This document shows positions 8,467-55,288 of a stretch of 64,000 nucleotides of DNA, one piece after another. The notes beneath the pieces were generated by a model. That model was not told the origin of the DNA, made no database searches, and was given only the letters and a program-made list of their open reading frames with translations. Numbering within the stretch: the stretch's first letter is position 1; each line of letters starts with the position of its first letter. Origin of the DNA: Pyrinomonadaceae bacterium (GTDB taxonomy: Bacteria; Acidobacteriota; Blastocatellia; Pyrinomonadales; Pyrinomonadaceae); assembly GCA_030841085.1 (NCBI GenBank), contig JAVEDP010000025.1:1-64000 (forward strand), written 5' to 3'. The position numbers and the translations under genes were made by a program.

Positions 8467-9425
8467 GTCATCGCTCAACGAGAAACCAGTTACTTTCATC
8501 CATTATTTTAGTAGCGTCAGCGCTACTCTTGCCTCGCTTCGCCGTCGCGCAGGAAAAAGATGTCGACCAGATCATCAAAGTCAACACCGATCTAGTTGTG
8601 TTCGACGCTCAGGTCATCGATAAGAAAACAAAACGCGTCATCGGCGATCTCACCAAAGATAATTTCGAACTTTCGGATAATGGGACCAAACAACAAATCA
8701 GCTATTTCAGCCGCGACGAGTTGTCACTTTCGATCATCCTCCTGCTTGATGTAAGCCGCAGCGTGCGTCCCATCATTCACCAGATTCGCGACGGTGCGCT
8801 GAATGCTTTGCGCCATCTAAAACCTGAAGATCAGGTGGCGGTGATGGCTTTTTCGGAAGGCTCGGAATTAGCGCAGGACTTTACAGCCGACCGCGCGCTG
8901 GTTTCGAAACAGATAAAGGCTGCGACGGCGACCGACGTCCTCGGCAACGGTACATTTCTTGGGCCAGCGCTTGAGAGCGCCGCGCTTCATATGCAGAAGG
9001 CGCCCGCAGCAAACAGCCGGCGAGTGATTATCGTTATCACCGACAACATCGCGCCGTCGATGGGTGCAAAAGAAAAAGAGATTGTGACGGAACTACTCGC
9101 CAACGGGACCGTCGTTTACGGCTTAATTGTGCGAGGTGCGATCGGAAAAGTCTTTAACGTGATTTCATTTGGCCAGATTAAGGCCGTGAACAAGTACGTC
9201 AACGAAACCGGCGGCGAAGTGATCGGCGCTGACAAGAACGAAGTCGATTTAAAGCTCGGCGCCGTAATCGATCGTTTGCGTGCGCGCTATGCAATCGGAT
9301 TTCGACCGACAAACACAAATGACGACGGCAAGCTGCGGCTCGTTGCGATCACAATCGCAGACAGCAAAAAGCGAAAGGATCGACCAATTGTGCTGACGAA
9401 GCGCGGATATTATCTGAAACGATGA
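8463..9425 (+). CDS. Secreted VWFA-related domain protein
   Basis: A 320-residue protein of the VWFA-related family common in Acidobacteria. The start at 8463 puts a Sec signal peptide first (SSIILVASALLLPRFAVAQ); the frame opens further upstream but that stretch is a gene remnant. Residues ~40-85 (NTDLVVFDAQVIDKKTKRVIGDLTKDNFELSDNG) are the characteristic N-terminal module. The metal-ion-dependent adhesion motif DVSRS is at ~96-100. The domain ends with YAIGFRPTN and a short beta tail. Likely an extracytoplasmic protein-interaction factor. Confidence 0.85.
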   Translation: MSHRSTRNQLLSSIILVASALLLPRFAVAQEKDVDQIIKVNTDLVVFDAQVIDKKTKRVIGDLTKDNFELSDNGTKQQISYFSRDELSLSIILLLDVSRSVRPIIHQIRDGALNALRHLKPEDQVAVMAFSEGSELAQDFTADRALVSKQIKAATATDVLGNGTFLGPALESAALHMQKAPAANSRRVIIVITDNIAPSMGAKEKEIVTELLANGTVVYGLIVRGAIGKVFNVISFGQIKAVNKYVNETGGEVIGADKNEVDLKLGAVIDRLRARYAIGFRPTNTNDDGKLRLVAITIADSKKRKDRPIVLTKRGYYLKR

Positions 9426-9687: not shown

Positions 9688-12027
9688 TCACTTCATTCCC
9701 TCAACCTGCACCCAGGTTCCATTGAACGCTGCTGTTCCACAAAGAGCGTCGATCGTTAGATGATCGGTTACATCGTTGATACTTTCGCCGGCGTGTTCTT
9801 GGGCCACCTCTAATTCAATTCCCTGCCGGCCATGTCCCCAACCGTGCGGAATACTCACCACACCCGGCATCATGTCTTCGGTAATCTCAATCGGCACTAC
9901 CACGCTTCCGACTTTCGAGCGCACCGAAACTTCCTGGCCGGGTTTCAGCTCGCGCTGGGCTGCATCCATTGGGTGCATGAGCATTGTGCATTGAGTTTTG
10001 CCTCTCATTAATCTTTCACTGTTGTGCATCCACGAGTTGTTGCTGCGCAGTTGGCGTCGTCCAATCAAGAGCAGATGGCCGCTGGAGTCACGAGATCCAT
10101 TGGGTGATGGCGGTGACGAAGGTTTGCGGGCGGGACGCCCGTGGTCCCATTCAAGCATTTTCGCCTTAACCCGTTCGACATCCTGGACCAGGACATCCGG
10201 CGCTAACTCAATACATTTATCCGAAGTACGCAGACGCCCCGGTAAGCACGAGCGCAATGGTCCAAGGTCGATTCCATGGACCGCGTTTTTGAGCTTTCGC
10301 AAAGTCAGACCTTTTGAAAAGGGATTCAACTTTGCGCCGTAAGGTCCAAACCGCAATCCCAGGTCGAGAATTCGTTCAGGGCCGAAGAATCTTTTAATGA
10401 CCTCACGTTTCACATTTCCCAACAGGTCATCGCGTTCTATGCGTGTTTGCAGTTCGACGAATATCTCCCAGTCATGTCGCGTCTCGGCGTCCGCTTGAAA
10501 GAACGGCGGTGAAAATTTGGCAGTGTTACGGACTGCCAGCACGTGAAACGCCACGTCATAGTGTCCGCGCTCGAGTGACGAGCTTGGCGGCAAGATAATG
10601 CGCGCATGCCTGGTCGTCTCATTAATATAAGGATCGATCGAGACCATGAACTCCAGGCCGGCAAATGCGCGGTCCAACTCACGGCCGTTCGGCGTCGACA
10701 GGACCGGGTTGCCGGCGGAAGTTATCAGGGCCTTAATCTGTCCCGGACCCTCGGTCAAAATTTCTTCCGCAAGCGTGACTACCGGAAGCTCTCCGGCAAA
10801 CTCAGGCAGCTTTCGCACACGGCTGTGCCAACGCGCGTAACTACCTCGCGGCGACAGCGATTGTGGTGCCGCGATTGGATCGAACGCCGGAAGTGTGAAC
10901 ATCGCGCCGCCCGGCCGATCCAGATTTCCGGTCACAATATTCAAGACGTTAATCAACCACTGGCAAACGCCGCCAAACTCCTGAGTGCTGACACCGATTC
11001 TTCCGTAGCAGACAGCGGATTCGGCGGCAGCAAATTCCCGAGCCAGGCTGCGAATTTGTTCGGCGTCGATGCCGGTAATTGCTGCAACTTTCTCGGGAGC
11101 GAATTCGGCGACGAGTTTGCCAATCGTGTCTACGCCTTTTGTAAACGCGGCCAATGGACCAAGGTCGGTTAACGCTTCGTCAAAGACAACGTGGAGCAGT
11201 GCGAGCAGCAATAACACGTCCGTACCTGGACGAATAAACAAATGCCGGTCGACCAGGCGCGCAGTTTCCGTGAAACGCGGATCGATGAGTACGACCTTCC
11301 CTCCCCGCTGGCGAATTCCCTGCAACCTTCGGCTCATTCCTGGCGCAGTCATCATGCTGCCATTTGAAACCGCGGGATTCGCGCCGAGAATTAGAAAAAA
11401 CTTGGTGCGGTCGATGTCGGGGACAGGGAGAAGGAGTTGATGCCCGAACATGAGGTACGCGGACAGGTGATGGGCCAGTTGGTCCACAGAAGTTGCGGAA
11501 AACCTATTTCGTGTGTGTAGGCTGCGGAGAAACCCCGGCGCGAACAGAAGCGCGCCGTAGTTATGAACGGTCGGATTACCGAGATAGGTTGCGATTGAAT
11601 TTCTTCCGTACTTCGCGTTAATGCGCTTGAGGTTCTGGGCGACCTCATCCAAAGCTTCGTCCCATCCGATCCGTTGCCAACCATCAGCAGCTCGTCGTAC
11701 AGGATATTTTAGCCGGTCTTTATCGTAGTGAAGATCTCCGAGAGCCGCGGCCTTTGGGCAGATGTACCCTTGGCTGAATGGATCGTCCTTGTCACCGCGA
11801 ATGTCGAGCCAGTTTCTAGTTTCCCGTTTTGAGTCTTCAGTTTCGACCTGCTCCTGCCGTCTGCCGCTGCCGTCTGTACCTGCTGCCTTCTGCCTACTGC
11901 TCCTGCGTACTGATTCCAGCTCCTGCCGACTGCCGCTGCCGTCTGCCGCTGTTATCACGATCCCGCAGATCGCTTCGCACAGATTGCAAGCGCGATAGTG
12001 AGCTGAAGCTTGGTCGACGGTTGCCAT
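9688..12027 (-). CDS. Molybdopterin-dependent oxidoreductase with 4Fe-4S domain
   Basis: A 779-residue protein of the DMSO reductase superfamily. The N-terminal 4Fe-4S ligands are C14, C17, C21 and C90 (CNLCEAIC...YICPKA). The Mo-bis-MGD domains follow (NSIATYLGNPTVHNYGALLF, FFLILGANPAVSNGS, VVLIDPRFTETARL, ITSAGNPVLSTPNGREL, IILPPSSSLERGHYD). The C-terminal cap domain has IGRRQLRSNNSWMHNSE. No Tat signal is visible, so it is probably cytoplasmic; substrate unknown. Two features are odd: a ~45-residue low-complexity Ser/Arg/Gln/Glu insertion between Cys 3 and Cys 4, and an in-frame repeat near residue 630. The ATG at 12027 is preferred over 12039. Confidence 0.9.
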   Translation of the reverse strand: MATVDQASAHYRACNLCEAICGIVITAADGSGSRQELESVRRSSRQKAAGTDGSGRRQEQVETEDSKRETRNWLDIRGDKDDPFSQGYICPKAAALGDLHYDKDRLKYPVRRAADGWQRIGWDEALDEVAQNLKRINAKYGRNSIATYLGNPTVHNYGALLFAPGFLRSLHTRNRFSATSVDQLAHHLSAYLMFGHQLLLPVPDIDRTKFFLILGANPAVSNGSMMTAPGMSRRLQGIRQRGGKVVLIDPRFTETARLVDRHLFIRPGTDVLLLLALLHVVFDEALTDLGPLAAFTKGVDTIGKLVAEFAPEKVAAITGIDAEQIRSLAREFAAAESAVCYGRIGVSTQEFGGVCQWLINVLNIVTGNLDRPGGAMFTLPAFDPIAAPQSLSPRGSYARWHSRVRKLPEFAGELPVVTLAEEILTEGPGQIKALITSAGNPVLSTPNGRELDRAFAGLEFMVSIDPYINETTRHARIILPPSSSLERGHYDVAFHVLAVRNTAKFSPPFFQADAETRHDWEIFVELQTRIERDDLLGNVKREVIKRFFGPERILDLGLRFGPYGAKLNPFSKGLTLRKLKNAVHGIDLGPLRSCLPGRLRTSDKCIELAPDVLVQDVERVKAKMLEWDHGRPARKPSSPPSPNGSRDSSGHLLLIGRRQLRSNNSWMHNSERLMRGKTQCTMLMHPMDAAQRELKPGQEVSVRSKVGSVVVPIEITEDMMPGVVSIPHGWGHGRQGIELEVAQEHAGESINDVTDHLTIDALCGTAAFNGTWVQVEGMK
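10126..10149. repeat. GC-rich palindromic repeat inside the oxidoreductase gene
   Basis: The core GGGACGCCCGTGGTCCCA matches the repeat ends at 20611-20731, 19182-19200 and 40267-40290. Here it is in frame and encodes a linker (near residues 627-634 of the oxidoreductase), so the element appears tolerated in coding DNA. Confidence 0.55.
11841..11952. repeat. Degenerate heptamer (CCGTCTG-like) repeat inside a coding region
   Basis: Units such as CCGTCTG, CCTTCTG, CCTACTG and CCGACTG recur, mostly with a 7-base step and occasional 6-base units. It lies inside the molybdopterin oxidoreductase gene and encodes residues ~26-62 without breaking the frame. Confidence 0.7.
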
Positions 12028-13324: not shown

Positions 13325-13534
13325 ATGACAAGACGAGTACTTTTATATCCGGGCGAAGACGGTTTTGTTGTCGCCGAAGTTCCCAGTCTTCCCGGTTGCA
13401 TCAGCCAGGGAAAAACGCGCGAAGAGGCACTCGAAAATGTGCGCGAGGCGATCTCATTGCATGAAGAAGTTTTGCGTGAGCGCGGCGAGCCGCTTCCCGA
13501 GGATCGCGTCGAGTTGGTCGAGGTCGCTGCGTGA
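13325..13534 (+). CDS. hicB: HicB-like antitoxin
   Basis: A 69-residue protein of the HicB/UPF0150 group: VLLYPGEDGFVVAEVPSLPGCISQGKTREEALENVREAISLHEE is the diagnostic partial RNase H-like fold. It lacks the C-terminal DNA-binding domain of longer HicB proteins, so autoregulation may differ. Its stop overlaps the GTG start of hicA (GTGA), giving translational coupling. It would neutralise the HicA mRNA interferase by direct binding. Confidence 0.88.
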   Translation: MTRRVLLYPGEDGFVVAEVPSLPGCISQGKTREEALENVREAISLHEEVLRERGEPLPEDRVELVEVAA

Positions 13535-13752
13535 GCAAGCTGCCGGTAGTCTCGGGCGCAGTTTGTGTCAAGGCGCTCGGCAAGATCGGGTTCGAAGTTT
13601 ATCGGCAGCGTGGCAGTCACATAGTCATTGTGCGCAAATCACCGCCCACCCAAACCACCATTCCCAATCACAAGGAACTTGATCGCGGCACGCTCCGCGC
13701 GATCATTCGCCAAACAGGCCTCACGGTCGAAGAATTCATTGCCTTACTTTGA
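13531..13752 (+). CDS. hicA: HicA-like mRNA interferase toxin
   Basis: A 73-residue protein with the dsRBD-like HicA fold (KALGKIGFEVYRQRGSHIVIVRKS...TIPNHKELDRGTLRAIIRQTGLTVEEFIALL). H30 in GSH is the expected catalytic His. It starts with GTG, overlapping the antitoxin stop by four bases. Members cleave mRNA when the antitoxin is lost. The order antitoxin-toxin is the reverse of classical hicAB but common for this short-HicB subtype. The surrounding DNA is rich in repeats and gene debris, which suits a mobile addiction module. Confidence 0.88.
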   Translation: MSKLPVVSGAVCVKALGKIGFEVYRQRGSHIVIVRKSPPTQTTIPNHKELDRGTLRAIIRQTGLTVEEFIALL

Positions 13753-13821
13753 GAATTGCATTCGGCGTCGGGCTTGTAATCAACGGGCTTCTGCAATCTA
13801 TTCATGATGCACGAGTCTGCT

Positions 13822-13908
13822 GACTTCTGACTTCTGACTTCTGATCTCTGACTTCTGACCTCTGATTGCTGCCTCTTCCCTTCACGATTGACGATTCACG
13901 ATTCACGG
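13822..13908. repeat. Heptanucleotide repeats GACTTCT and TTCACGA
   Basis: Two adjoining arrays. The first (13822-13877) has GACTTCT units with variants GATCTCT, GACCTCT and GATTGCT, all 7 bases. The second (13881-13908) has TTCACGA, TTGACGA, TTCACGA, TTCACGG. No gene here. Confidence 0.85.
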
Positions 13909-13915
13909 CTCTTAG

Positions 13916-14040
13916 GTGTCTTCGATAAGAAATTCATACGAGACTATTAGCCACGTTGTGAGTGAGGTGGTGGATAAAGCGGACGCTTCACAGACATTGC
14001 AGTTGCGATAATGAACTGAAGCTTTGCTCGGCGTTCTCAT
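13916..14040. pseudogene. Fused gene remnants: CPBP C-terminus and molybdopterin oxidoreductase N-terminus
   Basis: On the plus strand 13916-13949 nearly repeats the last bases of the CPBP gene and still reads VFDKKFIRDY then stop. On the minus strand, from ATG at 14040, the DNA reads MRTPSKASVHYRNCNVCEA, a match to the oxidoreductase start MATVDQASAHYRACNLCEA including the CxxC. The intact versions are 0.8-2 kb to the left, so duplication and deletion have happened here. The rest of the gap (to 14254) shows nothing recognisable. Confidence 0.75.
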
Positions 14041-14254
14041 AGCACAGTCCGTGAATATTCCCTGTCACCTCGACTAACGGGAAGCGTATGTCGAGAGCCT
14101 AACATATTCAGCTTGGCTTTCTCTCCCATAAGTGTGCCGTAACTTCTGGTAAACTCGACTGAACTGAAGATAAATATGCTCTACTGAAACCGATTTGGTG
14201 CGCGCGTCGAATTTGCGACTTTAGTTTTGAACAAGGGCCAGAGCGTTCCTATTA

Positions 14255-15553
14255 ATGGGTGACTATCATGACAACTACCGCTTGGATCGATCACCGATAG
14301 GTGATGGCGGGCAAGCGGAAGTATTTCGAGCGCAGAATAGGAGTACTGGAGCGTTTGTCGCGCTAAAACGCCGGAAGGGTGGTCTGAGTGAGGCAAAAGA
14401 CCGTATGCGTCGCGAGATTGAAGTGCAGGGTTCGATCGAACACCGTAACGTAATGCCGATTCTCGATTTCGATCGTGATGATTACCAATGGTACACGATG
14501 CCGTTAGCTGCTAATACGGCAGACAAGTTGCCGTTGCCGATTGACTCATCGTTGCTGTTTACGATCTTGCGAAGTGCGGCCGAAGGCTTAAACGCCGCTC
14601 ATGAAAAAGAGTTCGTACACCGCGATATCAAGCAAAGCAATCTCCTTCTGTTGAAGGACGGAAGTTGGGTTGTTGCTGACTGGGGAACCGTACGTCGCCC
14701 GCCCGGCCAAACGACTGCCAAGCACACGCGTACTGGCGTCTTCCTGGGAACCGAAGGGTTCGCTCCACCCGAGGCTCATTATTCAGCTCATTTAGCCACC
14801 CCAGCTTGGGACAGCTATAGCCTTGGTCGCGTGGCAGCTTGGGCGTTGACGGGTAAATGGCCAGCACCCAACATTGACTTGCCCGCTCCTGAGCCGTGGC
14901 GACGTTTTGTTCGCGTGCTAACGGACCCTGATCCCGCCCGGCGGCCCCAGAATATGAATGACCTGCTTGCCCTTTTAGATAGAGTTGGTACGGAACCTCC
15001 AATCGTCGCAGGCGTCTCCCCGGAATTGCTCGATGCGGCAAAGCAAGGAGATGACAATGCGACAGTTGAAGTTCTGAAGGCTGCCGAAGCGTCTCCCGAG
15101 GATGAGGTCTTCTTTATCGATGAACTTGCTCAGATTGACGGAAGCGGATTAGATCGCTTCGTTAGCGCGTTTCCCGCAGATGCTCGAAAGTTGGTGCGTT
15201 TGATGGAAAAGCATTTCTCAAATATTTCTTGGGGTAATCGAGATTTTGACTATTTGAATGTGCCTCTTCATTGGCTGCAACGAGTAGCGCAAGCTGCGGC
15301 AAACGCTGGTGAGTTTGATCTACTGGAGGACGCGTGCGAATCTCTGTTTCGACTAGAGCCACCGACTGATCGCTATAAGCAAGCTGGTAGAAGTCGCGCT
15401 TGGTTGGCGTCGCTTCAAGGTTCGGCCGCGACTCGCGTCGCTCAGGTATTGCGAGATGATGTTGAGGCGGCTCGATACTACGGTGACCTACGAGAGGCAC
15501 GGGATCCCAAGATCCGCGCGGTCCTACGCGACGCAGCTCGCACAAACAATTAA
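14255..15553 (+). CDS. Serine/threonine protein kinase with unknown C-terminal region
   Basis: A 432-residue soluble kinase. The Gly loop is GDGGQAEVF (16-24), the ATP Lys K38, and the catalytic loop HRDIKQSN (H122, D124, N129). The Mg-binding DFG motif is replaced by D142-W143-G144. The domain ends around residue 235. Residues ~245-432 are helical, have no transmembrane segment and match no family I recognise (AKQGDDNATVEVLKAAEASPEDEVFFIDEL recalls an ankyrin-like or helical repeat). It converges with the HerA gene with a 28-base gap. Its substrate is unknown; a role with the neighbouring defence genes is possible but unproven. Confidence 0.85.
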   Translation: MGDYHDNYRLDRSPIGDGGQAEVFRAQNRSTGAFVALKRRKGGLSEAKDRMRREIEVQGSIEHRNVMPILDFDRDDYQWYTMPLAANTADKLPLPIDSSLLFTILRSAAEGLNAAHEKEFVHRDIKQSNLLLLKDGSWVVADWGTVRRPPGQTTAKHTRTGVFLGTEGFAPPEAHYSAHLATPAWDSYSLGRVAAWALTGKWPAPNIDLPAPEPWRRFVRVLTDPDPARRPQNMNDLLALLDRVGTEPPIVAGVSPELLDAAKQGDDNATVEVLKAAEASPEDEVFFIDELAQIDGSGLDRFVSAFPADARKLVRLMEKHFSNISWGNRDFDYLNVPLHWLQRVAQAAANAGEFDLLEDACESLFRLEPPTDRYKQAGRSRAWLASLQGSAATRVAQVLRDDVEAARYYGDLREARDPKIRAVLRDAARTNN

Positions 15554-15581
15554 ATTTCTCTTCGCGCCGATCTTCAATTTC

Positions 15582-16004
15582 CTAGTCCAAGGGCAAATAG
15601 TCAAGCTCGGGTACGATTACGCTAAATTTGCGGGTTGAGCTTCGCGGACGGCGGTCCTCATCCAAGGGCTTTACGTTTATTTTTAGAGGCATTTGGCTAG
15701 CAACGCCACTAAAGATACACGTACCAGTAGGAAGGGTTGGTATAGACTCTTCGGTCAGTCGATCGATGTACGAAACGGCGCTTGCTATAGTGTCGAGATC
15801 GCGTTGATTAATGAGTCGGTGAATGAAATAGTTGTGAGCCTGCGACGTGAGTGTAGGCGAGATGTCGTTAGGTCTCTGACTGGAAAGGGTGACGAATGCG
15901 CCAAACTTCCGCCCTTCCTTAATTATCTCCTCAAAGGTTTCGAGCCGGTAGTCTTTCCAGCTTTCAGCCTCACGAAAAGATTCTGTTGAAAGAATGTTAT
16001 GCAT
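15582..16004 (-). pseudogene. HerA-like ATPase, C-terminal part after a frameshift
   Basis: This frame holds the continuation of the HerA gene: HNILSTESFREAESW follows directly on IIIDDA of the upstream part, then GRKFGAFVTLSSQRPNDISPTLTSQAHNYFIHRL, which is the sensor/arginine-finger region, and a C-terminal tail to residue ~158. The reading frame is displaced by a 2-base deletion (or 1-base insertion) at ~15999-16005, in the Walker B motif. No start codon with a good ribosome site exists, so it is unlikely to be made separately. Confidence 0.8.
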
Positions 16005-17439
16005 CGTCGATGATGATGTTAAGGGATTTGTTTGCGCCGGCTCTTTTGTGCTCTGCATAGAGCTTTTTAGAAAGCAGTAAAGGTATTGTTTTCTTCATCT
16101 CTAGATTTACATCGTCGAGATTCACGACCACGAAATTCGTTTCCCAGAATTGGGCATCTCCACTAAGGTCAAACAATTTGTCGATATCGTCCCGCTTGCT
16201 CTTTATCCTGTTAATAACTGGCGCTATGTGTTCGTTTTGCGCGCGATTCGCTAAGACGTCAGACACAAGTTGAAGATAGAGAAAAACGATGAGGTTAGAT
16301 AGCAAGCTTTCTCCGAACTCAAATTCGTCGACGTGACCGTAGATGAAAGTATCAACAATTAGATCCGGATGCTGTTGGAGATATATATCGCCGGCTTTGA
16401 TGAAGAATTCGGAACCCTTGTTGTACCAGTCCAAATCGGAAATTAGATCAATCTGCTGACCTTCGGCATCTTCGCTTGGCAGAATCTCGCGAAAGTAGTC
16501 GACGAGTAAATAAGCTCTTACTTTGTCGCTCATCTGAAGGAGATCATTGATTCTGCGACGCATTATGTTCTTTATGTAGTTTTCTGGGTCCTCGGCGGCA
16601 AGTACGCTCATAAAGAAGTTGAGCGTTCGTTTGAGGAAAGGTCGCTGCGTCTTTTCAGAAGCTTGGGCGAGGATCGAAAGAATTTCTATGTCTAGTAGTG
16701 ACTCTTCACCGAGTGGTAGTTTGTCAGCGTCGCCGACGCGTGTAGAGAGATTGTAAACTGTTTTGGTGTGGGCTATGCACGACTCCGAAGTGTATTCGCC
16801 ATTGAAATCAAAGAGAACAAAGCGAGCATTCTGTGCAAACGCGTCAGGATTGCGCTGGTAGAGTGTCCGAATAAGCTCTTGATAAAGATATGCGAGCGTA
16901 TTCGATTTCCCACTTCCGGTGTTGCCAAATATCGCTATATGACTATTGAATAACCCATCAATCGGTAGCTGAATATCGAAACCTTCACCATAACTTGTAG
17001 CTATGTTGATATAGGGAGCATCATCGCTTACGAGACTGTGAATTACGTGAATCTTTTCTTGAGTGACGATATATGCTTCATTGCCAATTAGGGGTAGTTC
17101 TTTGGTCCCACCCCTGAACAAACCCGTATCGTCAATGTAACCCGCGAGCGACACTGTTAATATGCGCTTGTTGCGATTAATAAAGTCTCGATCGTTTTCG
17201 GATGTTCGATAGAATTCCTCTTCAATCTTTTCGCCTTCAACTCGACCTATTATGCTTAGAAATCCCTTTCTAATTTCGATGTAACTATTCACTGAAATGT
17301 TTTTGAGGATGTCTCCGTCTAAAAACATGTCAGATAGGTTTTTGTTCTTATCGACTAGGATATAAATACGGCGTCCATCTACGCCAGAGACCTGTCCGAC
17401 GCGGAGAATTGCATCACGGGTGAGAGTCGCGACGCTCAT
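15997..17439 (-). pseudogene. HerA-like DNA-translocating ATPase, truncated at Walker B
   Basis: 480 residues. An N-terminal HAS-type beta-barrel (residues ~10-160) precedes the VirB4/FtsK-like ATPase with Walker A GNTGSGKSNT (~172-181). The frame stops right after NIIIDDA, where HerA proteins continue as DEAHN; the rest is in another frame at 15582. The protein as written cannot complete its ATPase site. The gene overlaps the end of the SIR2-like gene by 4 bases (ATGA), the standard arrangement of SIR2-HerA anti-phage systems, in which HerA forms a ring that carries SIR2 NADase subunits. A sequencing or assembly error must be excluded before calling it dead. Confidence 0.8.
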
Positions 17440-47169: not shown

Positions 47170-48144
47170 TCAAGATGCTGTCCTGAACCCCAATGACGGA
47201 TGCCGCTCTCGCAGCACTTGAATAAGATGATCTTTTGTCACATGTGTGTACCGTTGCGTCGTCGCAATCGAGGCGTGGCCCAGGAACTCCTGCACGATTC
47301 GTATGTCGACACCGTTACGAAGTAGCAGAGTAGCCACCGTATGGCGGAGCATGTGTGGAGTGATGTGCCGCTCTATACCTGCATCCTTCCGAAACTGAGC
47401 GATGATGTTTGCGATTCCCTGGGTAGAGAGACGTTCGCCTGAAGCATTTAGAAATAGAGCTGAGCTTTCCGAAGCTAATCGTGCACGGGCGTCTATATGA
47501 TCCCGCTGAATACGCACCGTCTGTTCGTCAACGACGAAGGCCAAACGATCTCTGCCTCCCTTCCCGCTAACTTTGAAAACTGACTCGGCGACGGCAAAGT
47601 CTTCCAAGTCCAGGGCCGATACTTCCCCAACACGCATACCGGTGGCGAAAAGTAAGTCGACTAACGCCAGATTACGCAGCGCACGATACGATCGCGCGGA
47701 TGCTCCGGGATCTTTATGCTTTGCTAATGCTGATCCTTTGCGGGGAATCTCGGCAGTACGATGGTTCTCATTTGCTTGAGCGAGAAGGCCGCGTATCTCG
47801 ATCTCAGTTAGAGCCCGCGGCAGCTGCACGATTCTTCCGAAGCTGAGCTTGACTCTCCAAAATGGTGACTCCGGAAGAACACCCTTCCGAACCCAGTATG
47901 AGCAGAACACTTTGAGCACAACCATTTTGCGCCGCATTGATGCGGGCGCATAAGATTTGGTCCGCAAATCAGCGGCCCAGCCCTCGATAAGAGTGGCATC
48001 AAGCGAAGAAAGAGAACAGGCGTCGGGCGCGAACGCCGCAAGCTGTTCCAAATCTGACTTGTATGCCACCTCGGTCTTCCTACTTCTGTCATGGGTGGAA
48101 AAGTAGCCACTAAAAAACTCGCTTATTGCTTGGTCTAGTTGCAT
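47170..48144 (-). CDS. Tyrosine recombinase (XerC/XerD-like integrase)
   Basis: A 324-residue enzyme. The start at 48144 is supported by GGGAG ~9 bases upstream; the frame opens further to 48312. The SAM-like N-terminal core-binding domain covers ~1-105. Catalytic residues are R171 (ATGMRVGE), K195 (SGKGGRDR), H264 and R267 (HMLRHT), H290 (LGHASI) and Y299 (TTQRYTH), so it should be active. There is no partner Xer here and no dif site; its position at one edge of an AT-richer block with a tRNA-half repeat at the other suggests an integrase of a genomic island. Confidence 0.88.
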   Translation of the reverse strand: MQLDQAISEFFSGYFSTHDRSRKTEVAYKSDLEQLAAFAPDACSLSSLDATLIEGWAADLRTKSYAPASMRRKMVVLKVFCSYWVRKGVLPESPFWRVKLSFGRIVQLPRALTEIEIRGLLAQANENHRTAEIPRKGSALAKHKDPGASARSYRALRNLALVDLLFATGMRVGEVSALDLEDFAVAESVFKVSGKGGRDRLAFVVDEQTVRIQRDHIDARARLASESSALFLNASGERLSTQGIANIIAQFRKDAGIERHITPHMLRHTVATLLLRNGVDIRIVQEFLGHASIATTQRYTHVTKDHLIQVLRERHPSLGFRTAS

Positions 48145-48377
48145 GGTATGCACTCCCGCAAACGAGTCCGGGGGCGGACCCTTCAAGATTGAAGAGCTTT
48201 GTTGATTCGTCTCGGTGGGTGGGAAAAACCGTGGTGAGTTTAATCCGGGCAGAGTTAAGGTTTCAAGGACGCGGCGACTAGAGCGGATTAAAAGAAGAGC
48301 GCCACAGTTCACTATTGTCCCAAAAGCTCATTGCATCCATAATGTAACTACTCAGATGTTCCTTTAGCCTCGCTTTG

Positions 48378-48393
48378 GATAACAAGGAGTTAT
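48378..48393 (+). promoter_or_regulatory. Palindromic SD element, ATP-grasp gene
   Basis: GATAACAAGGAGTTAT. ATAAC and GTTAT are complementary arms enclosing AAGGA, so the Shine-Dalgarno sits in the loop. The same element precedes three other genes at 51774, 52760 and 54530. Confidence 0.7.
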
Positions 48394-48396
48394 GTG

Positions 48397-49395
48397 ATGC
48401 CGCCGCCGGTCAAATCCTCACCGCTTCGCATCTTGTATTTGGCAAACTACGCTCCACTCAATGAGACGGAAGCCGCCGAAGAAGCGAGCGAGAGCGTCCG
48501 GTACACGCGTTACCACAAAGAAATGTTTGGCCTTCTTAAGGCTTTGGGGTTTAGTGTCACTCCATCGAGAAAGGTAGAGTCTCTGCTCAATCATCCAACC
48601 TCGTACGACTATGTGTTCTCACTCTTGAATCGCGCGCCTTACCGGGGTTCTGAGATCCTCGTTTCAGCCCTGTGCGAATACTTCAGACTGCCATACCTAG
48701 GTGCCCGACCACAGATCCGGGCGGTTGCAGAGGATAAGTACGTTGCGAAACTCGTTGCCAAGCAACTAGGATTTGAGGTTCCCGCCGGGGAAATCTTCAG
48801 GGGAACAGATGCGGGATTGATACCACCACGCTTTCCCGGCCCGTACATCGTCAAGCCGCGATGCGGCGCTTCGTCCAAAAATATTACCGAAGACTGCATA
48901 CAGGATCAGTGGAGTGATCTTGTGTCAGAAGTTCGACGTTTGCTGGGGCTTGGTGATGATGTTCTGGTCGAGGAGTGGATTCCCGGGATAAACATCTCTC
49001 TACCAGTCATCGGCGGTGCGCCGCCGTTGATATTGCCAGCGTATCAGCTCGATTCGGCGAAGAAAGGACAGCTAGTCACTTATGATCAAAAGCGCGGCTT
49101 AGAAAGGAGCTTAAAGAGGGCTCCTTTTGATAACAGTGCGGTTTACGATGAAATAAGTCGCTGTGCGTTGCGTCTGTACAGTGAACTCGGACCGATCGAT
49201 TATCTTCGACTGGATTTTCGTATTACGGACTCAAACAAACCAGTCTTCCTGGAATTTAATATATGTTGCAATATTGGACCGGAGTCCGGATTTTATGCGT
49301 GTGCCAAGCAAACAGGTTTATCACATCAAGAGATGTTGATGCGTATCCTGGCCCATAGTTTCAAGCGACAGGAAATCGATTGGCAATCCTTCTAG
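48397..49395 (+). CDS. ATP-grasp enzyme, D-Ala-D-Ala ligase-like
   Basis: A 332-residue ATP-grasp protein. ATG at 48397 has AAGGAG 7 bases upstream. The ATP-grasp lid begins PGPYIVKPRCGASSKNI; DVLVEEWIPGINISLPVIGG is the central strand pair; and YLRLDFRITDSNKPVFLEFNICCNIGPESGFY replaces the DDL sequence EVNTLPG, with Asn and Glu metal ligands kept. The substrate loop differs from true Ddl, so it ligates an unknown amino or peptide acceptor. The last 75 bases overlap the end of the STAND gene on the other strand. Confidence 0.8.
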   Translation: MPPPVKSSPLRILYLANYAPLNETEAAEEASESVRYTRYHKEMFGLLKALGFSVTPSRKVESLLNHPTSYDYVFSLLNRAPYRGSEILVSALCEYFRLPYLGARPQIRAVAEDKYVAKLVAKQLGFEVPAGEIFRGTDAGLIPPRFPGPYIVKPRCGASSKNITEDCIQDQWSDLVSEVRRLLGLGDDVLVEEWIPGINISLPVIGGAPPLILPAYQLDSAKKGQLVTYDQKRGLERSLKRAPFDNSAVYDEISRCALRLYSELGPIDYLRLDFRITDSNKPVFLEFNICCNIGPESGFYACAKQTGLSHQEMLMRILAHSFKRQEIDWQSF

Positions 49396-51762
49396 CGGAT
49401 TCTGATACCAATAGAAGAGACTGCAAGGGGAATATAAGTCGAAGAATAATTCCGAGTTCGACCGCGAAGGTTTGGCAAGAAACTCTTTTATGGTGTCAAC
49501 TCGATCAAGTGTTACTTGCGGACTCCTGCGGTCAGGATACTGAAGCGCTCTCTCGCACAGCGACATGACAGCTTCCGCTGGTGCCTGGGCGAACAGACTA
49601 ATCAAGGCCCCGTTGAGATACACTTTTTGTCTCACCCTGTCGACCTTAGCGTGTTCGGCTTCCAGGACCACACTCTCAATCGTCGACAACGCAGCTTCTG
49701 GCTGTCCCGTGAGGAGTTGTGCCGCAGCTAGATTTGTCAGGGTATACGCGCGAGGAAGTTCTTTTCCCATATATCGCAAGGCTTTGCGGCAAGTTTTTCC
49801 GGCTTGATCATACAACCCTAAGTATAAGTAACAGTGCGCTAAGTCTCCGACTACCATACCGAGATGGTTTACGCCAAATACCTCTAAGAGATCGTAAGCG
49901 CGCTCCACATCCACCAAACCAGCTTCGGGCTGTTCTGTTTGGGCGAGTTTGGCACCGCGATTACAAAGAGTTGTAGCTGTACCGAACGCGTCTTGATTAC
50001 GTTCGTGGTATGGCAACGCGCTTGTCAGAATCTCCACTCCTTCCCGAGCCTCGAAGACCTCGGCGCCGTTACGCAGGAAATAACCATAATTTGAAGCGTT
50101 GGCTAGTTTGTCTCGATAATCGCGAAAAAGGCGCGCGGCCCCCGCTATGTCATTCGCATGAATTCTTCCCACCATTCGATATGAGACCAGCATCGAAAGT
50201 TCCTCGACGGAACGGGCCGTTTCACAAAGTTTGGTCAGAAGTTGTTCGGATTCCGCGTGGAAGCGACGTCGGTTTAGTGCAATGCCTTTGAAGATCTGTA
50301 CGAATCGATTTTGAGCCCACTCTATGTGCGGAGTATTCGCCGTAAGCTCAAGTACTCGGCTATACCCCTTGACTGAGATCAAGAAAGCGAGTTTCGCCAG
50401 GTAATCCTGAATATTCAATTGAGATTCTTGCTCGGGAGTAATAGCACGATCTACGAACTCCTCAGCAAGCGACCGGCTACCCATTTGTAGGGAAAGGTGA
50501 ATGATGTCACGAAGGCGAGCATCAGTCTCTTCAGTGGCAACTTTCTTTGCCAATCTGTAAAGGAGTGGCGCCACCTCAGCCGGTGAATGTCGGCGGGACA
50601 CTTCTTTTACGCGACAAAAATAATCGTAGAGGCGTGTTTCTTGTCGCGTGGTCTCTCCTAATGAGAGTTGCAACACCTCCTTCATTGTCTGGTGTGACGG
50701 GCGCAACGAAACCAACTGATCGCCGTCTGGAAGATCGGTAATTCCAAGTAGTCCGCTCAAGAAAAGTTCATTGAGTACTCCATCGACCTCTTGCTCGCTT
50801 TCGACGAACACAGCATTGTCATCCAAGGCCAGTGCCAAGACGTCTGATCGGCGGATGTCTTGCTTGGTAATTGAGAGCAACGAGAGAATTGACGCCGCCA
50901 CCGGAGGCAAGCTTGCGATGACCCTTGAAGAGTCTGCCGTCGTACCACCAGCCGCGGCAATCGCAGCGCGAATCTTGTAGATGTCGCCGTTTGTTGCAGC
51001 GGCGATTGATTTGCAGATCGTCAGCGGCCATTGAACACCGTGGTCTGACGCATATAGCCTTATGAATTCCACGTCAGGCCGAACGAAAAGCTGGACTCTT
51101 ACGTCGTATCCGACGTATTTTGATTTCAGTGCAAATTCGTCTGCGCCAGACTCACGGTGTTCGTTGCGCGAAACGAAGCCAGCCACGTACCGGATGCCTC
51201 TATAAGCTTTCCCGACGGTGACGGACAGCAAATCTGCCGACCAACTGTCCAGTTCCTGGACGTTATCTAGGAACATACACACCTGATGCTTCGCCGAAAG
51301 CTCAATAAGAAACTCACAAAAAACCTCCGCTGCAATTGATGGATAGGCAGAATTGGAAAGTGTTGGGTACGCTAATTCAATTCCCTTCGCGAGTGTGCGC
51401 CCAACGTACGGGATGCTGGCAGTCATGGCAGCGAAAATTTCCTTTGAGCTCGTGCGCCCTGCGCGACGCTCTTGAAATTTAATGTATTCACGCCAGATGG
51501 TCGGATATTTTCCAAAAAACTCCACACCAAACTGACCGAACAGACTATTCCCATCATGTTTGGCCCCATCGGCGTAGAGCGAGATCGACGAATCAGTATT
51601 CTTGCCGGAGCAGTACTTAAGGAAATGAGTAAGGCCTGAATGTGATGGTGCCGACAGGACTTCTATGCGGGGAGAGATTTGCGGCCGATGAAGGAATTCG
51701 TTTATGGCGCCGACCTCATGAGTTCGGTTCACGAAGTCTGACATTATGCTTACGTCACCCAT
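49321..51762 (-). CDS. STAND-like ATPase with TPR repeats
   Basis: An 813-residue protein. FVNRTHEVGAINEFL and LSAPSHSGLTHFLKYC sit where an AAA/STAND NTPase has its N-linker and Walker A, but the P-loop Gly-Lys-Thr is degenerate (SHSGLTHF). QVCMFLDNVQELDSWSADLL is the Walker B/sensor region. The C-terminal half is helical (TPR-like; VERAYDLLEVFGVNHLGMVVGDLAHCYLYLGLYDQAGKTCRKALRYMG). STAND proteins with TPRs often act as switches in anti-phage defence. Convergent with the ATP-grasp gene; its promoter side carries the palindromic element. Confidence 0.7.
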   Translation of the reverse strand: MGDVSIMSDFVNRTHEVGAINEFLHRPQISPRIEVLSAPSHSGLTHFLKYCSGKNTDSSISLYADGAKHDGNSLFGQFGVEFFGKYPTIWREYIKFQERRAGRTSSKEIFAAMTASIPYVGRTLAKGIELAYPTLSNSAYPSIAAEVFCEFLIELSAKHQVCMFLDNVQELDSWSADLLSVTVGKAYRGIRYVAGFVSRNEHRESGADEFALKSKYVGYDVRVQLFVRPDVEFIRLYASDHGVQWPLTICKSIAAATNGDIYKIRAAIAAAGGTTADSSRVIASLPPVAASILSLLSITKQDIRRSDVLALALDDNAVFVESEQEVDGVLNELFLSGLLGITDLPDGDQLVSLRPSHQTMKEVLQLSLGETTRQETRLYDYFCRVKEVSRRHSPAEVAPLLYRLAKKVATEETDARLRDIIHLSLQMGSRSLAEEFVDRAITPEQESQLNIQDYLAKLAFLISVKGYSRVLELTANTPHIEWAQNRFVQIFKGIALNRRRFHAESEQLLTKLCETARSVEELSMLVSYRMVGRIHANDIAGAARLFRDYRDKLANASNYGYFLRNGAEVFEAREGVEILTSALPYHERNQDAFGTATTLCNRGAKLAQTEQPEAGLVDVERAYDLLEVFGVNHLGMVVGDLAHCYLYLGLYDQAGKTCRKALRYMGKELPRAYTLTNLAAAQLLTGQPEAALSTIESVVLEAEHAKVDRVRQKVYLNGALISLFAQAPAEAVMSLCERALQYPDRRSPQVTLDRVDTIKEFLAKPSRSNSELFFDLYSPCSLFYWYQNPLEGLPIDFLSLETMGQDTHQHLLM

Positions 51763-51773
51763 TGCAGAGCGTA

Positions 51774-51789
51774 ATAACTCCTTGTTATC
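51774..51789 (-). promoter_or_regulatory. Palindromic SD element, STAND gene
   Basis: On the minus strand GATAACAAGGAGTTAT, identical to the element before the ATP-grasp gene. It ends 12 bases before the ATG at 51762. Confidence 0.7.
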
Positions 51790-51861
51790 GCTACCGTGAT
51801 CACAAAGCTAACTACGGGAGCGTCCGTATGGAGTTATTGAACGACGAAAGGTAGATTGAAA

Positions 51862-51936
51862 TTAGGAATTCGAGATCATGCGCGTTGGCTCAATAAAACG
51901 CATCCTCTTCTGCGGATTTTGAGCATTGTCACTCAT
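51862..51936 (-). CDS. Candidate 24-residue peptide
   Basis: The frame starts one base after the stop of the membrane protein gene at 51938 (TAAAATG) with GGAG ~10 bases upstream. It encodes a short, positively charged peptide with central KRMRFIEPTRM and Asn/Ser ends. Too short to judge by composition; it could be a real coupled peptide gene or chance. Adjacent to an ATP-grasp gene, so a modified-peptide precursor is one possibility. Confidence 0.3.
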   Translation of the reverse strand: MSDNAQNPQKRMRFIEPTRMISNS

Positions 51937-51937
51937 T

Positions 51938-52510
51938 TTATGATGCTCCAACTTTGTAGAGATGCTCTTTGATGGGTTTACCGGTAACTTCATGATACCC
52001 GTAGGCGACTCTACTATAGAATCCGCGGTACGCACGCCTCCATCCAATGGCACTCAGGCCTGCAATGAACAACGGAACGATTCCGGCAAGGGCAATCTTC
52101 CCGCCTAACAAGAACATCGGGACTGCAATCATGGAGAAATTAACCATGCCCGCCCTCGTTAATCGAACAACACTTAGGTGCATTGTCAAAGCGCGATTTA
52201 CTTCTTCCGAAGCATTCTGACGGACCTTCATTATGATGTCTTCATAAGTAAAAGGGGGATCAATCTGGTCTCTGTATTTGGATTGAGCGATACGCCTCGT
52301 CACCCTATAGCTGATGCCATTCATCACTACTCCAAGCTGATAAGAAAGGGCGGTTATGAACATTAGACCCGGGGTGGACTTAGCAATATCGATAAGGCCT
52401 TTTAGAGATTCCAAATCAATGATGGCCAGGCGGACGCTCCAGAGCGATATCCACACAATGGTGAAGAATCCAATGATTAATAATTCGACAATTATTGAGG
52501 TGGTAGCCAT
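51938..52510 (-). CDS. Membrane protein of unknown function
   Basis: A 190-residue protein with four likely helices (IIVELLIIGFFTIVWISLWSV, GLMFITALSYQLGVVMNGISY, NFSMIAVPMFLLGGKIALAGIVPLFIAGLSAIGW) and a charged central loop (DQIDPPFTYEDIIMKVRQNASEEVNRAL). No family recognised. It is AT-richer than the flanking leu and GH genes. It is divergent from the UbiA gene and may share its promoter region; no Shine-Dalgarno of quality is seen before the ATG. Confidence 0.65.
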   Translation of the reverse strand: MATTSIIVELLIIGFFTIVWISLWSVRLAIIDLESLKGLIDIAKSTPGLMFITALSYQLGVVMNGISYRVTRRIAQSKYRDQIDPPFTYEDIIMKVRQNASEEVNRALTMHLSVVRLTRAGMVNFSMIAVPMFLLGGKIALAGIVPLFIAGLSAIGWRRAYRGFYSRVAYGYHEVTGKPIKEHLYKVGAS

Positions 52511-52759
52511 TGTAATCGCATATTGTTCTGAAAACTGAACGAACGAACAGGTCGCTTCTTCAGCCCGCGCCGCTTGACACCTTCCCCTGAACTCTCATCA
52601 GCAGCGCGCATTTGATGGGTGGCTCGGTGTGAGGCGATCTCCCCGAGGTTTGGACAAAGGTTACGAGCAGCGGCATACCTCTATTCTAATAACGATTGTC
52701 GATAACGCCATTTGGGGAGATAATAACACGCGTCTCAACTCGCTCTCTCATTCCATTTG

Positions 52760-52775
52760 GATAACTAAGAATTAT
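52760..52775 (+). promoter_or_regulatory. Palindromic SD element, UbiA gene
   Basis: GATAACTAAGAATTAT, 2 bases before the GTG start at 52778. Same 16-base layout as the elements at 48378, 51774 and 54530; here the loop reads TAAGA, a weak ribosome site. Confidence 0.65.
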
Positions 52776-52777
52776 TT

Positions 52778-53563
52778 GTGGCAGCTCTCCGCGCAATATT
52801 TCAACTCACAAGACTCGAAACCTCACTGCTTGGGTTCTTCGCGATCTTCATCCCGTTCTTTACGAGAAACCACGACTTGTACTTGAGTTTCAGCAGGGCT
52901 GTTCCATTGCTGTTCATCTCCGTCTGTACATTTGTTGCAAATGACTTGGACGATATGGAAAGAGATCGAGTTAATCATCCGGATCGACCACTACCGGGCG
53001 GGCACCTTTCTCCAGTATTTGTTGTGATTTGCTATTTCACGTTCTTAGCCTTAGCTCTCTTTTCAACGAGTTACTTTATCCCGTCAGGTATTGATTTTTT
53101 GTACTATAGCGCTATCTCGCTATCGATAAGCTACGGCTACATAAGTGAGTATATTCCCATCCTTAAGCCTCCTTATGTGGCAATTGCGGCAACAGTGCCA
53201 ATCTTGATTGTCGCGACCTCATATCCCAAGGAGCCGAGACTCTACTTAATCGCCGGATCTGTTTTTCTAATCACCTTAGGACGAGAAATATGCATGGACA
53301 TAAAGGATAGGGCTGGCGATCCTGTCTCATTCATGCATAGGTTCAGGCCTAAGGCACTTGGGAAAGTAGCGTTCTCTCTGCAGGCGATAGGATTGCTTTT
53401 GCTAGTGATCTTAATAAATAAAGGGGGAGATATTATCGCTTTGGTCGTGATGTCACTTCTACTTGTGATATCCGCACTTTGCTGGTTCCAGTTTGAAAGC
53501 TACAAACTATCGCTGATAGTAATGAAAATTCAGCTGTTTGTCGGCCTTTATTTTCTCATTTAA
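52778..53563 (+). CDS. UbiA family prenyltransferase
   Basis: A 261-residue membrane enzyme with about eight helices. The two Asp-rich motifs are present: N55-D56-LDD-MERD63 followed by RVNHPDRPLPGG, and REICMDIKDRAGD. UbiA enzymes attach prenyl chains to aromatic or glycerol acceptors; here neither a quinone nor a haem pathway is adjacent. GTG start after the palindromic element. It converges with the membrane protein gene at 53580 with 16 bases between. Confidence 0.85.
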   Translation: MAALRAIFQLTRLETSLLGFFAIFIPFFTRNHDLYLSFSRAVPLLFISVCTFVANDLDDMERDRVNHPDRPLPGGHLSPVFVVICYFTFLALALFSTSYFIPSGIDFLYYSAISLSISYGYISEYIPILKPPYVAIAATVPILIVATSYPKEPRLYLIAGSVFLITLGREICMDIKDRAGDPVSFMHRFRPKALGKVAFSLQAIGLLLLVILINKGGDIIALVVMSLLLVISALCWFQFESYKLSLIVMKIQLFVGLYFLI

Positions 53564-53579
53564 GAAACGGCAGGTGTCC

Positions 53580-54527
53580 TTATTTCATTAGAGTCTGTAT
53601 CACCATAGCCAAAATCGTGATTCCAAAAGGCAGGTCTGTCAGGGCCAACTGTAAGCTGTAGCGCAATTCGTCACGAGACATTTTTTTGAACTCGACTAAG
53701 TGAGCACGCTTTTCGTAAGCGTTAAAATTCTCACTCCGCAGTTTTCGTTTCAGAATTTCTATCTCGAAGTCAATAGATTTGCTATACAGCTTCCGCAATA
53801 CCTCCCGAGGATAGAAATTGAAGATCAACAATACCGGTGTCGCCATAATAGCCGGAAGAATCAGGAAGATCCGTACGCTTTGCTGAAACATAGTGTCATA
53901 CGCAAATGGTCCCTTGTAATAGAACATTACATGAACGTAAACAAAAATAATGGTCAATGTTGATGCGACATTCACGTACCAGTTAATACTGTCCAGTTCA
54001 CGATGTCTGAATAAATTCCGCGTGATGCGAACGTCTGACAGCGAATGGATCATCATCGCCGCGTACCTTAATTTGCGGCCGACGAACGAGGCAAAAGCAT
54101 ATTCGGCACAGACGGCGATCATCATCAAAATCTCGCCTGTCCCCGACAAGGGAAACCGGCAATACCGAAAAATAAGAAACGCCACCACGGTCACTTGTGC
54201 TGCAAACAGTATTGTCTTTCGCAAACTCCAAAAGTGTCGCTGATGAGTAAAATACTTTGTGTCATCTAATTGCTCCTTGGTAAACACTGTCTTAATCATG
54301 GTTGGAATGTCTTTCTGTACGTAAAGGACGACAAGTGCTGTTCCAAGAATTAGACCCAGCGAAATAATAGTCTTGAAGTTACTAGTATATGCCGCAAAGA
54401 ATTTCATTGATTCAGATTCGCCTTCGAGATGCCAGATGAGCGCTGTGGCGAAGCCACCGTAGATCGTACTGATTGCCAATCCCGCGAAGAAAACAAACAT
54501 GAGGGTAAATGGTGATCGCTTGGGCAT
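53580..54527 (-). CDS. Membrane protein of unknown function
   Basis: A 315-residue protein with about seven helices: FTLMFVFFAGLAISTIYGGFATALIWHL, TIISLGLILGTALVVLYV, TILFAAQVTVVAFLIFRYC, EILMMIAVCAEYAFASFVGR, VASTLTIIFVYVHVMFYY, IFLILPAIMATPVLLIFNF, plus a C-terminal one. A charged, helical region (DFEIEILKRKLRSENFNAYEKRAHLVEFKKM) lies before the last helix. No family recognised. The gene has the palindromic element 2 bases before its ATG. Confidence 0.7.
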   Translation of the reverse strand: MPKRSPFTLMFVFFAGLAISTIYGGFATALIWHLEGESESMKFFAAYTSNFKTIISLGLILGTALVVLYVQKDIPTMIKTVFTKEQLDDTKYFTHQRHFWSLRKTILFAAQVTVVAFLIFRYCRFPLSGTGEILMMIAVCAEYAFASFVGRKLRYAAMMIHSLSDVRITRNLFRHRELDSINWYVNVASTLTIIFVYVHVMFYYKGPFAYDTMFQQSVRIFLILPAIMATPVLLIFNFYPREVLRKLYSKSIDFEIEILKRKLRSENFNAYEKRAHLVEFKKMSRDELRYSLQLALTDLPFGITILAMVIQTLMK

Positions 54528-54529
54528 CG

Positions 54530-54545
54530 ATAATTCTTAGTTATC
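54530..54545 (-). promoter_or_regulatory. Palindromic SD element, gene at 53580
   Basis: Minus-strand GATAACTAAGAATTAT, same sequence as the UbiA element; followed by CG and the ATG at 54527. It also lies between this gene and the divergent HNH gene, so both could be under its control. Confidence 0.65.
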
Positions 54546-54631
54546 AGTATATAGCAGTGAGATCGGATGTTTAGTTGGAGTCGCAATTTTCTAGATTGCG
54601 TGGGATTGAATTTCGAACGAAACTCGCAGCG

Positions 54632-55288
54632 ATGAGTTTGAGACCCAAGATATCGCAGGGCGTCGCTGATGAGCTGATGTACCGCAATCGGCACACGTGC
54701 TGCGTTTGTCACACGCCACGTAAGCACACTCAGATTCACCATATCGATGGTGACTCGTCGAATAATACGTTTGCCAATTTGGCAGTGCTCAGCCTCGATT
54801 GCCACAGCCTAGTCACCGGTGACGAAGGCTTAGGACGAAGCTACACTGCTGGCGAAGTCGCGAGATATAAGACGCATTGGGAACAACAGTGCGCTGTTCT
54901 AAATATTGAAAACGAAAGCAGTGAATCCGAAGACGAAGAGGAAGACGACGAAGTTGACGAGGAAAGTGATCAGCCGGCGGAACATCATTACGAGGATTCG
55001 ATTCTTGAAGCGGATTCCCACCTGCACCTGCCGTACTCTTTAAGCGACGGTGACAATATCGCGCTGTGGATAGATAGTGATGAGCCGCTAACAGTGATGT
55101 TCATCGACACTGAAGACTACGGACTCTGGGACAGCGGTAAGGAAGTCGATCCCCACGAGCTCCATGAAGATGTCTACGCCTTGAACACGACATTCGTTGC
55201 CGAGGAAGATGGCAATTATTCGATAGTCGTATGCAATTTCGGAAATGAGAATGCAAACCTTCAGCTGGACCTTGCAGTTTGGGAGTAA
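54632..55288 (+). CDS. HNH endonuclease-like protein with C-terminal beta domain
   Basis: A 218-residue protein starting MSLRPKISQGVADELMYRNR, the usual start for this HNH subgroup; a TTG at 54575 gives a longer, less likely form. The nuclease core has a zinc ligand set C23/C26 and C57 around HHIDGDSSNNTFANLAVLSLDCHS, with the catalytic His pair at 36-37. An acidic linker (ESSESEDEEEDDEVDEESD) leads to a beta domain (LPYSLSDGDNIALWIDSDEP...YSIVVCNFGNENANLQLDLAVWE) of the GOLD/pre-peptidase type. Such a combination suggests a targeting module; it may cut DNA or RNA in defence. Confidence 0.8.
   Translation: MSLRPKISQGVADELMYRNRHTCCVCHTPRKHTQIHHIDGDSSNNTFANLAVLSLDCHSLVTGDEGLGRSYTAGEVARYKTHWEQQCAVLNIENESSESEDEEEDDEVDEESDQPAEHHYEDSILEADSHLHLPYSLSDGDNIALWIDSDEPLTVMFIDTEDYGLWDSGKEVDPHELHEDVYALNTTFVAEEDGNYSIVVCNFGNENANLQLDLAVWE

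Follow-up and report, generated by a model that had tools for sequence, protein, structure and literature searches.

What is the function of a palindrome that stands at the ribosome-binding sites of four genes in separate transcription units? We addressed this question in a 64,000-nucleotide stretch of a Pyrinomonadaceae genome (contig JAVEDP010000025.1, positions 1 to 64,000), which is referred to as the window. A first-pass annotation had reported a 16-base motif before an ATP-grasp gene, a STAND gene, a UbiA gene, and a membrane protein gene, in both orientations, and the motif is present exactly at all four positions (48378, 51774, 52760, and 54530). The annotation had noticed no further copy in the window and proposed a genome-wide search allowing two mismatches. 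In this search, GATAACWARGARTTAT gave 4 exact matches in the whole genome (4,688,395 bp), all inside one island, 0 matches with 1 mismatch, and 11 with 2 mismatches; the reversed pattern, used as a control, gave 4 matches in all. These results indicate that the motif is island-specific, with no further exact or one-mismatch copy in the 4.69-Mb genome. Within the window, 8 matches were found at ≤3 mismatches against 1.8 expected, and none of 100 shuffles reached 8. The arms had also been described as enclosing the ribosome site close to the start codon, and purine-rich, Shine-Dalgarno-like bases indeed sit between the arms of all four sites, with a start codon 0–11 nt inside each.

Two properties went beyond the first-pass annotation: the four sites form two inward-facing pairs, and the neighboring gene (47170–48144, minus strand) encodes a tyrosine recombinase (Pfam Phage_integrase, E = 8.5e-40). 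Sites 1 (48378–48393, plus strand) and 2 (51774–51789, minus strand) are both GATAACAAGGAGTTAT (16/16 bases); their seven-nucleotide centre is CAAGGAG, within which AAGGAG faces AAGGAG. They form the left and right ends of cassette 1, in which a D-Ala-D-Ala ligase-like ATP-grasp gene (48394–49395, plus strand), whose Shine-Dalgarno sequence is provided by site 1, converges with a STAND-like AAA/TPR gene (49321–51762, minus strand) and overlaps it by 75 nt. Sites 3 (52760–52775, plus strand) and 4 (54530–54545, minus strand) are both GATAACTAAGAATTAT (16/16 bases), with the centre CTAAGAA (TAAGAA facing TAAGAA), and form the left and right ends of cassette 2. This cassette contains a UbiA-family prenyltransferase gene (52778–53563, plus strand), for which site 3 doubles as the Shine-Dalgarno sequence, and a convergent membrane protein gene (53580–54527, minus strand). 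The membrane protein matched no Pfam or NCBIfam family, and its homologues (57–58%) stand beside UbiA in the loci L025 and L134. Each pair of sites thus encloses one convergent gene pair. The suggestion that ATP-grasp, STAND, UbiA, and the two membrane proteins may form one system was not borne out: the four genes belong to two separate gene-pair modules, which are found apart in other genomes.

Between the cassettes lies an ORF for a 190-aa membrane-protein-like product (51938–52510, minus strand) that is not associated with a site and matched no family, and an ORF just beyond cassette 2 (54575–55288, plus strand) weakly matches HNH endonucleases. In most cassettes, the converging genes share 4–75 nt at their 3′ ends (49321–49395 in the window, and L024, L031, L035, L128, L133, L135, L148, and L149), which leaves little room for terminators.

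In regards to the recombinase, the best curated models were XerC and XerD, with scores below their cut-offs, and the active-site residues R, K, H, R, H, and Y were invariant across 10 homologues. We propose that this enzyme acts on the four sites. Comparison of homologous islands, which had also been recommended, showed that the motif recurs in them. In the other genomes examined, homologues of the recombinase adjoin the same kind of sites; an exact motif search of 119 genomes of the order revealed further sites, again as inward pairs, and the recombinases beside them were 60–74% identical. A recombinase search of 84,980 species genomes gave eight loci, in Pyrinomonadaceae, other Blastocatellia, Terriglobia, Candidatus Angelobacter, and one Chitinophagaceae MAG. 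The recombinase is rare, being present in 5 of 162 genomes of the class, in 4 of 399 in the class of genome G490, and in 1 of 375 in the class of the Chitinophagaceae MAG, and this rarity fits horizontal spread. Searches of viral contigs gave one good relative (L045), whose examined stretch contained no site pair, and the recombinases found in plasmids were only about 30% identical. An intact recombinase gene lies near the inverted sites except at one cassette of genome G039 (contig C72) and at cassette 2 of the window, neither of which has its own copy; in G341, exceptionally, the recombinase gene points toward the cassette. Across the loci, a gene starts 0–16 nt inside nearly every site; the exceptions are a STAND gene in G044, whose start was found 42 nt inward of the site, and the gene beside one site of the G039 C72 cassette, which reads toward that site.

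We compared the centres of the sites among the loci. Scanning the loci and their genomes with a relaxed pattern, together with G341 from a phylum search, gave 11 intra-contig pairs. For two further recombinases, known from the protein search only, we set down the prediction, ahead of any inspection of their surroundings, that each would be accompanied by an inward pair with identical centres around convergent genes, and this was found in both cases; G1090 has one pair with the centre TAGGAA, and G1128 has doubled sites at each end, all with TGAGAA. The centres were identical within the pair in all 13 intact intra-contig inward pairs and differed between loci, with eight centres observed: AAGGAG, TAAGAA, TAGGAA, AGAGAA, AGAGAG, TGAGAA, TGGGAA, and TAGAGA. 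Under random pairing of the observed centres, p was 2e-9 for the first 11 pairs and 8.5e-11 for all 13, values that overstate independence because the loci are partly related, yet each of the eight centres pairs with itself. The sample of 13 pairs is small and the genomes are mostly MAGs. The outer arms are also alike within pairs (p = 0.0013, from hand-entered flanks with one pair left out).

In L148, the site occurs twice in tandem at both cassette ends (9196–9230 and 11401–11449, as 20-bp and 34-bp direct repeats), perhaps as a trace of recombination or slippage. A lone site with the centre AAGGAG, which differs from that of the adjacent intact cassette, was observed at L031:2834 and L028:589–3460; on its inner side are a 325-aa gene and then a transposase-like gene, and it looks like a broken second module.

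The sites also coincide with the limits of homology. The cassettes of G492 (L035) and G1090 (L149) encode proteins that are 58–75% identical, and their detectable nucleotide similarity (434–6204 in L035 against 9824–15568 in L149) runs from one site to the other; the two recombinases are far apart in the tree. Two cassettes of G039 have outer flanks that are 93% identical as far as the inner edge of the site, with unrelated genes beyond. Between the UbiA/membrane protein cassettes of the window and G039, the similarity extends 4 bases past the site. These homology limits indicate that what moves or flips is the segment from site to site. The side of the cassette that is nearer to the recombinase varies: UbiA takes this place in L025 and the membrane protein in L134; the STAND-nuclease gene does so in L128 and L149 and the glycosyltransferases in L035; and the FAD enzyme does so in L133 and the membrane protein in L148. 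The comparison between species shows three gene-pair families in both orientations, although such differences, which arose in evolution, could also stem from independent insertion.

The assembly of the window genome contains one orientation only. In G093, a Pyrinomonadaceae MAG of the same genus assembled with megahit (k = 141), contig C10 stops two bases past a site, and contig C15 begins precisely 141 bases outside the outer edge of the partner site, the partnership being deduced from the common centre. This is the graph break expected if both junctions occur among the reads and hints at inversion within the population, but mixed strains or another copy of the element would look the same. 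In G489, contig ends (L032 and L129) also lie at or near sites; they showed no obvious fit to a k-mer length and were not counted as evidence.

From these observations, we consider it probable that the palindromes are the core sites of the neighboring Xer-like recombinase and that they bound invertible, exchangeable cassettes of convergent genes, in which inversion switches the gene that is expressed. The ATAA-centre-TTAT core agrees with that of known Xer sites (PMC12907356). The arms (ATAA/TTAT) would bind the recombinase, and crossover would take place in the 7-nt centre, which would have to match between partners and would also serve as the Shine-Dalgarno sequence of whichever gene follows. 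Because the genes start directly inside the sites and the ribosome-binding site is within the site, the space up to the start codon is too short for a promoter; the promoters would have to lie outside the cassette, and inversion would then join the other gene to the outside promoter. Expression would be mutually exclusive, with ATP-grasp or STAND from cassette 1 and UbiA or the membrane protein from cassette 2. Two weak putative promoters of this kind, alike in layout (TTGTCN-17-NATAAT, 34–35 nt ahead of the site), were found on the ATP-grasp and UbiA sides: TTGTCC-17-CATAAT (48315–48343, plus strand), 34 nt before site 1, with a score reached by 10% of shuffles, and TTGTCG-17-GATAAT (52696–52724, plus strand), 35 nt before site 3, with a score reached by 9%. 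They suggest, with low confidence, that ATP-grasp and UbiA would be the genes expressed in the sequenced state. Since the 3′ ends of the convergent genes overlap or nearly touch, transcription of the expressed gene may continue in antisense across the silent one, and this read-through could add to the repression of the latter. As centres would have to match for recombination, the two modules that lie side by side in the window would stay independent of each other.

We weighed this inversion switch against three other explanations of the palindrome. The first-pass annotation had suggested control by a shared regulator or by an RNA thermometer-like structure. An operator bound by one transcription factor at all four genes would account for an element that is palindromic, directly upstream of each gene, and restricted to the island; the stretch 47170–54545 contained no recognisable regulator gene, however, and the inward pairing, the pair-matched but locus-specific centres, and the homology breakpoints would be left unexplained, so that an operator seems very improbable. 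We give even less credence to a fold in the mRNA that hides the Shine-Dalgarno sequence. The AAGGAG versions can form a 5-bp stem (−3.3 and −5.9 kcal/mol, flanks included), whereas the TAAGAA versions fold at 0 and −1.7 kcal/mol, so that two of the four hairpins are not stably folded; no Rfam family matched, and the arms show no covariation, the loop varying instead and doing so identically within pairs. The stable, conserved stem over the Shine-Dalgarno sequence that defines an RNA thermometer or a cis-regulatory RNA is thus missing. Neither regulatory reading predicts the identical spacers of the inward pairs (13/13), the breakpoints of homology, or the constant tyrosine recombinase.

A more serious competitor, which we still regard as unlikely, takes the palindromes for recombination sites that serve only the mobility and exchange of cassettes, like the pdif modules of Acinetobacter, with inversion as a by-product and no switch of expression. 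Such a role agrees with the arrest of homology at the sites, with the similar cargo that adjoins distant recombinases, and with the two G039 cassettes that have a common flank and different cargo. Identical centres in inverted pairs favor inversion, however, and the centres of pdif sites differ between the module ends (PMC12907356); moreover, a ribosome-binding site within the site and a start codon adjoining it would serve no purpose if mobility were the only function. Two known classes of elements were also compared and rejected. The repeats are not transposon ends, as the recombinase lies outside them and the similarity past the repeats is inverted and arm-like rather than a target duplication. 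The cassettes are not those of an integron, as the integron integrase model gave 88 bits against a cut-off of 265, and the sites are inverted rather than being directly repeated attC.

Among known systems, the closest by mechanism are the Vpma locus and the Mu G segment, and the closest by site anatomy and cassette exchange are the dif/pdif modules of Acinetobacter. In Mycoplasma agalactiae, inversion by Xer1 at sites that lie in 5′ untranslated regions connects the Vpma genes, one by one, to a single promoter (PMC2268961). As in Vpma and the Vsp locus of M. bovis, a tyrosine recombinase gene adjoins the locus here and the sites are just upstream of the starts (PMC2268961), and the connection of a silent gene to a single promoter by inversion is what we propose for the cassettes. 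Vpma differs in comprising a family of related surface lipoproteins with long, near-identical sites (72 nt, with a 21-bp core) in one genus, whereas the cassettes carry unrelated gene pairs between 16-bp sites with the Shine-Dalgarno sequence in the crossover and occur in several bacterial classes. The Mu G segment with Gin (and the P1 C segment with Cin) likewise has convergent genes between inverted sites and an adjoining invertase gene (PMC12529663), with alternate expression through inversion as proposed here; it differs in using a serine recombinase and an enhancer, in encoding versions of one tail-fibre function, and in having the crossover in the coding sequence.

The dif/pdif modules of Acinetobacter have inversely oriented sites with an ATAA-centre-TTAT core and 6-bp centres that differ between the module ends (PMC12907356). 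They resemble the cassettes in that genes lie between inverted Xer-type sites with ATAA...TTAT inner arms and that the modules stand side by side and are mobile; they differ in depending on the host XerC/XerD, in their 28-bp sites, and in having no tie to start codons. Seven nucleotides, e.g., CAAGGAG, separate ATAA and TTAT in the present sites, instead of the 6-bp centre of pdif, and the two ends of a cassette carry identical centres in 13/13 pairs. In the mba and UU172 loci of Ureaplasma, two neighboring genes are alternately expressed via inversion at short repeats, and these repeats are partly in the coding sequence, chimaeras are possible, and the products are surface antigens (PMC3047005). 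With those defining features of pdif modules and integrons that we compared absent, and with inverted sites of identical crossover and a nearby recombinase present, we place the cassettes as a variant among the tyrosine-recombinase inversion systems. Our literature searches found no description of such a system; most subscription papers lay outside these searches, and an earlier account may exist.

If the inversion switch is correct, it would extend such switches beyond the mycoplasmas and gut bacteria, the home of most described examples that we found, and would represent an either-or choice between biosynthetic enzymes and STAND-type, possibly defence-related proteins. We tentatively suggest, at somewhat less than an even chance, that these are horizontally spread, two-faced cassettes whose sites each combine the roles of crossover, boundary, and ribosome-binding site, so that a cell carries two programmes that are unrelated and may even be incompatible (on one side a modifying enzyme, on the other a STAND-type defence or membrane protein), expresses only one of them, and swaps gene pairs between recombinase loci. 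A crossover that doubles as the Shine-Dalgarno sequence would explain how translation is retained when unrelated genes are inserted, and this overlap suggests a design for programmable either-or gene switches. The rule (inverted ATAA-N7-TTAT sites with matching purine-rich centres and an Xer-like recombinase nearby) allows any genome or read set to be scanned, and matching centres would predict which sites recombine with each other.

The cargo of the cassettes usually includes an enzyme on one side: a D-Ala ligase-like ATP-grasp protein, UbiA, a lycopene cyclase/geranylgeranyl reductase-like FAD enzyme, group-4 or group-2 glycosyltransferases (group 2 with a carbamoyltransferase), or a UbiE-like methyltransferase with a TauD-like dioxygenase. 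The opposite side encodes a STAND-type protein or a membrane protein. In L035, the STAND-type protein contains an Mrr-type nuclease domain, which is weakly matched in L031 as well, and the membrane protein of the UbiA cassettes is a distant relative of that of the FAD cassettes (27%, E = 4e-9). One cassette glycosyltransferase matches the Pfam family GT4-conflict; for GT4 and STAND proteins of such kind, a part in bacterial conflict systems has been proposed (PMC8195603). PADLOC recognised none of the STAND proteins except for a weak mad8 hit in L135, and a role of the cargo in phage defence is accordingly a guess. In G341, the most divergent relative (L044), the UbiE-like methyltransferase and TauD-like dioxygenase stand opposite a 1314-aa protein (13494–17438, minus strand) that ends in WD40 repeats.
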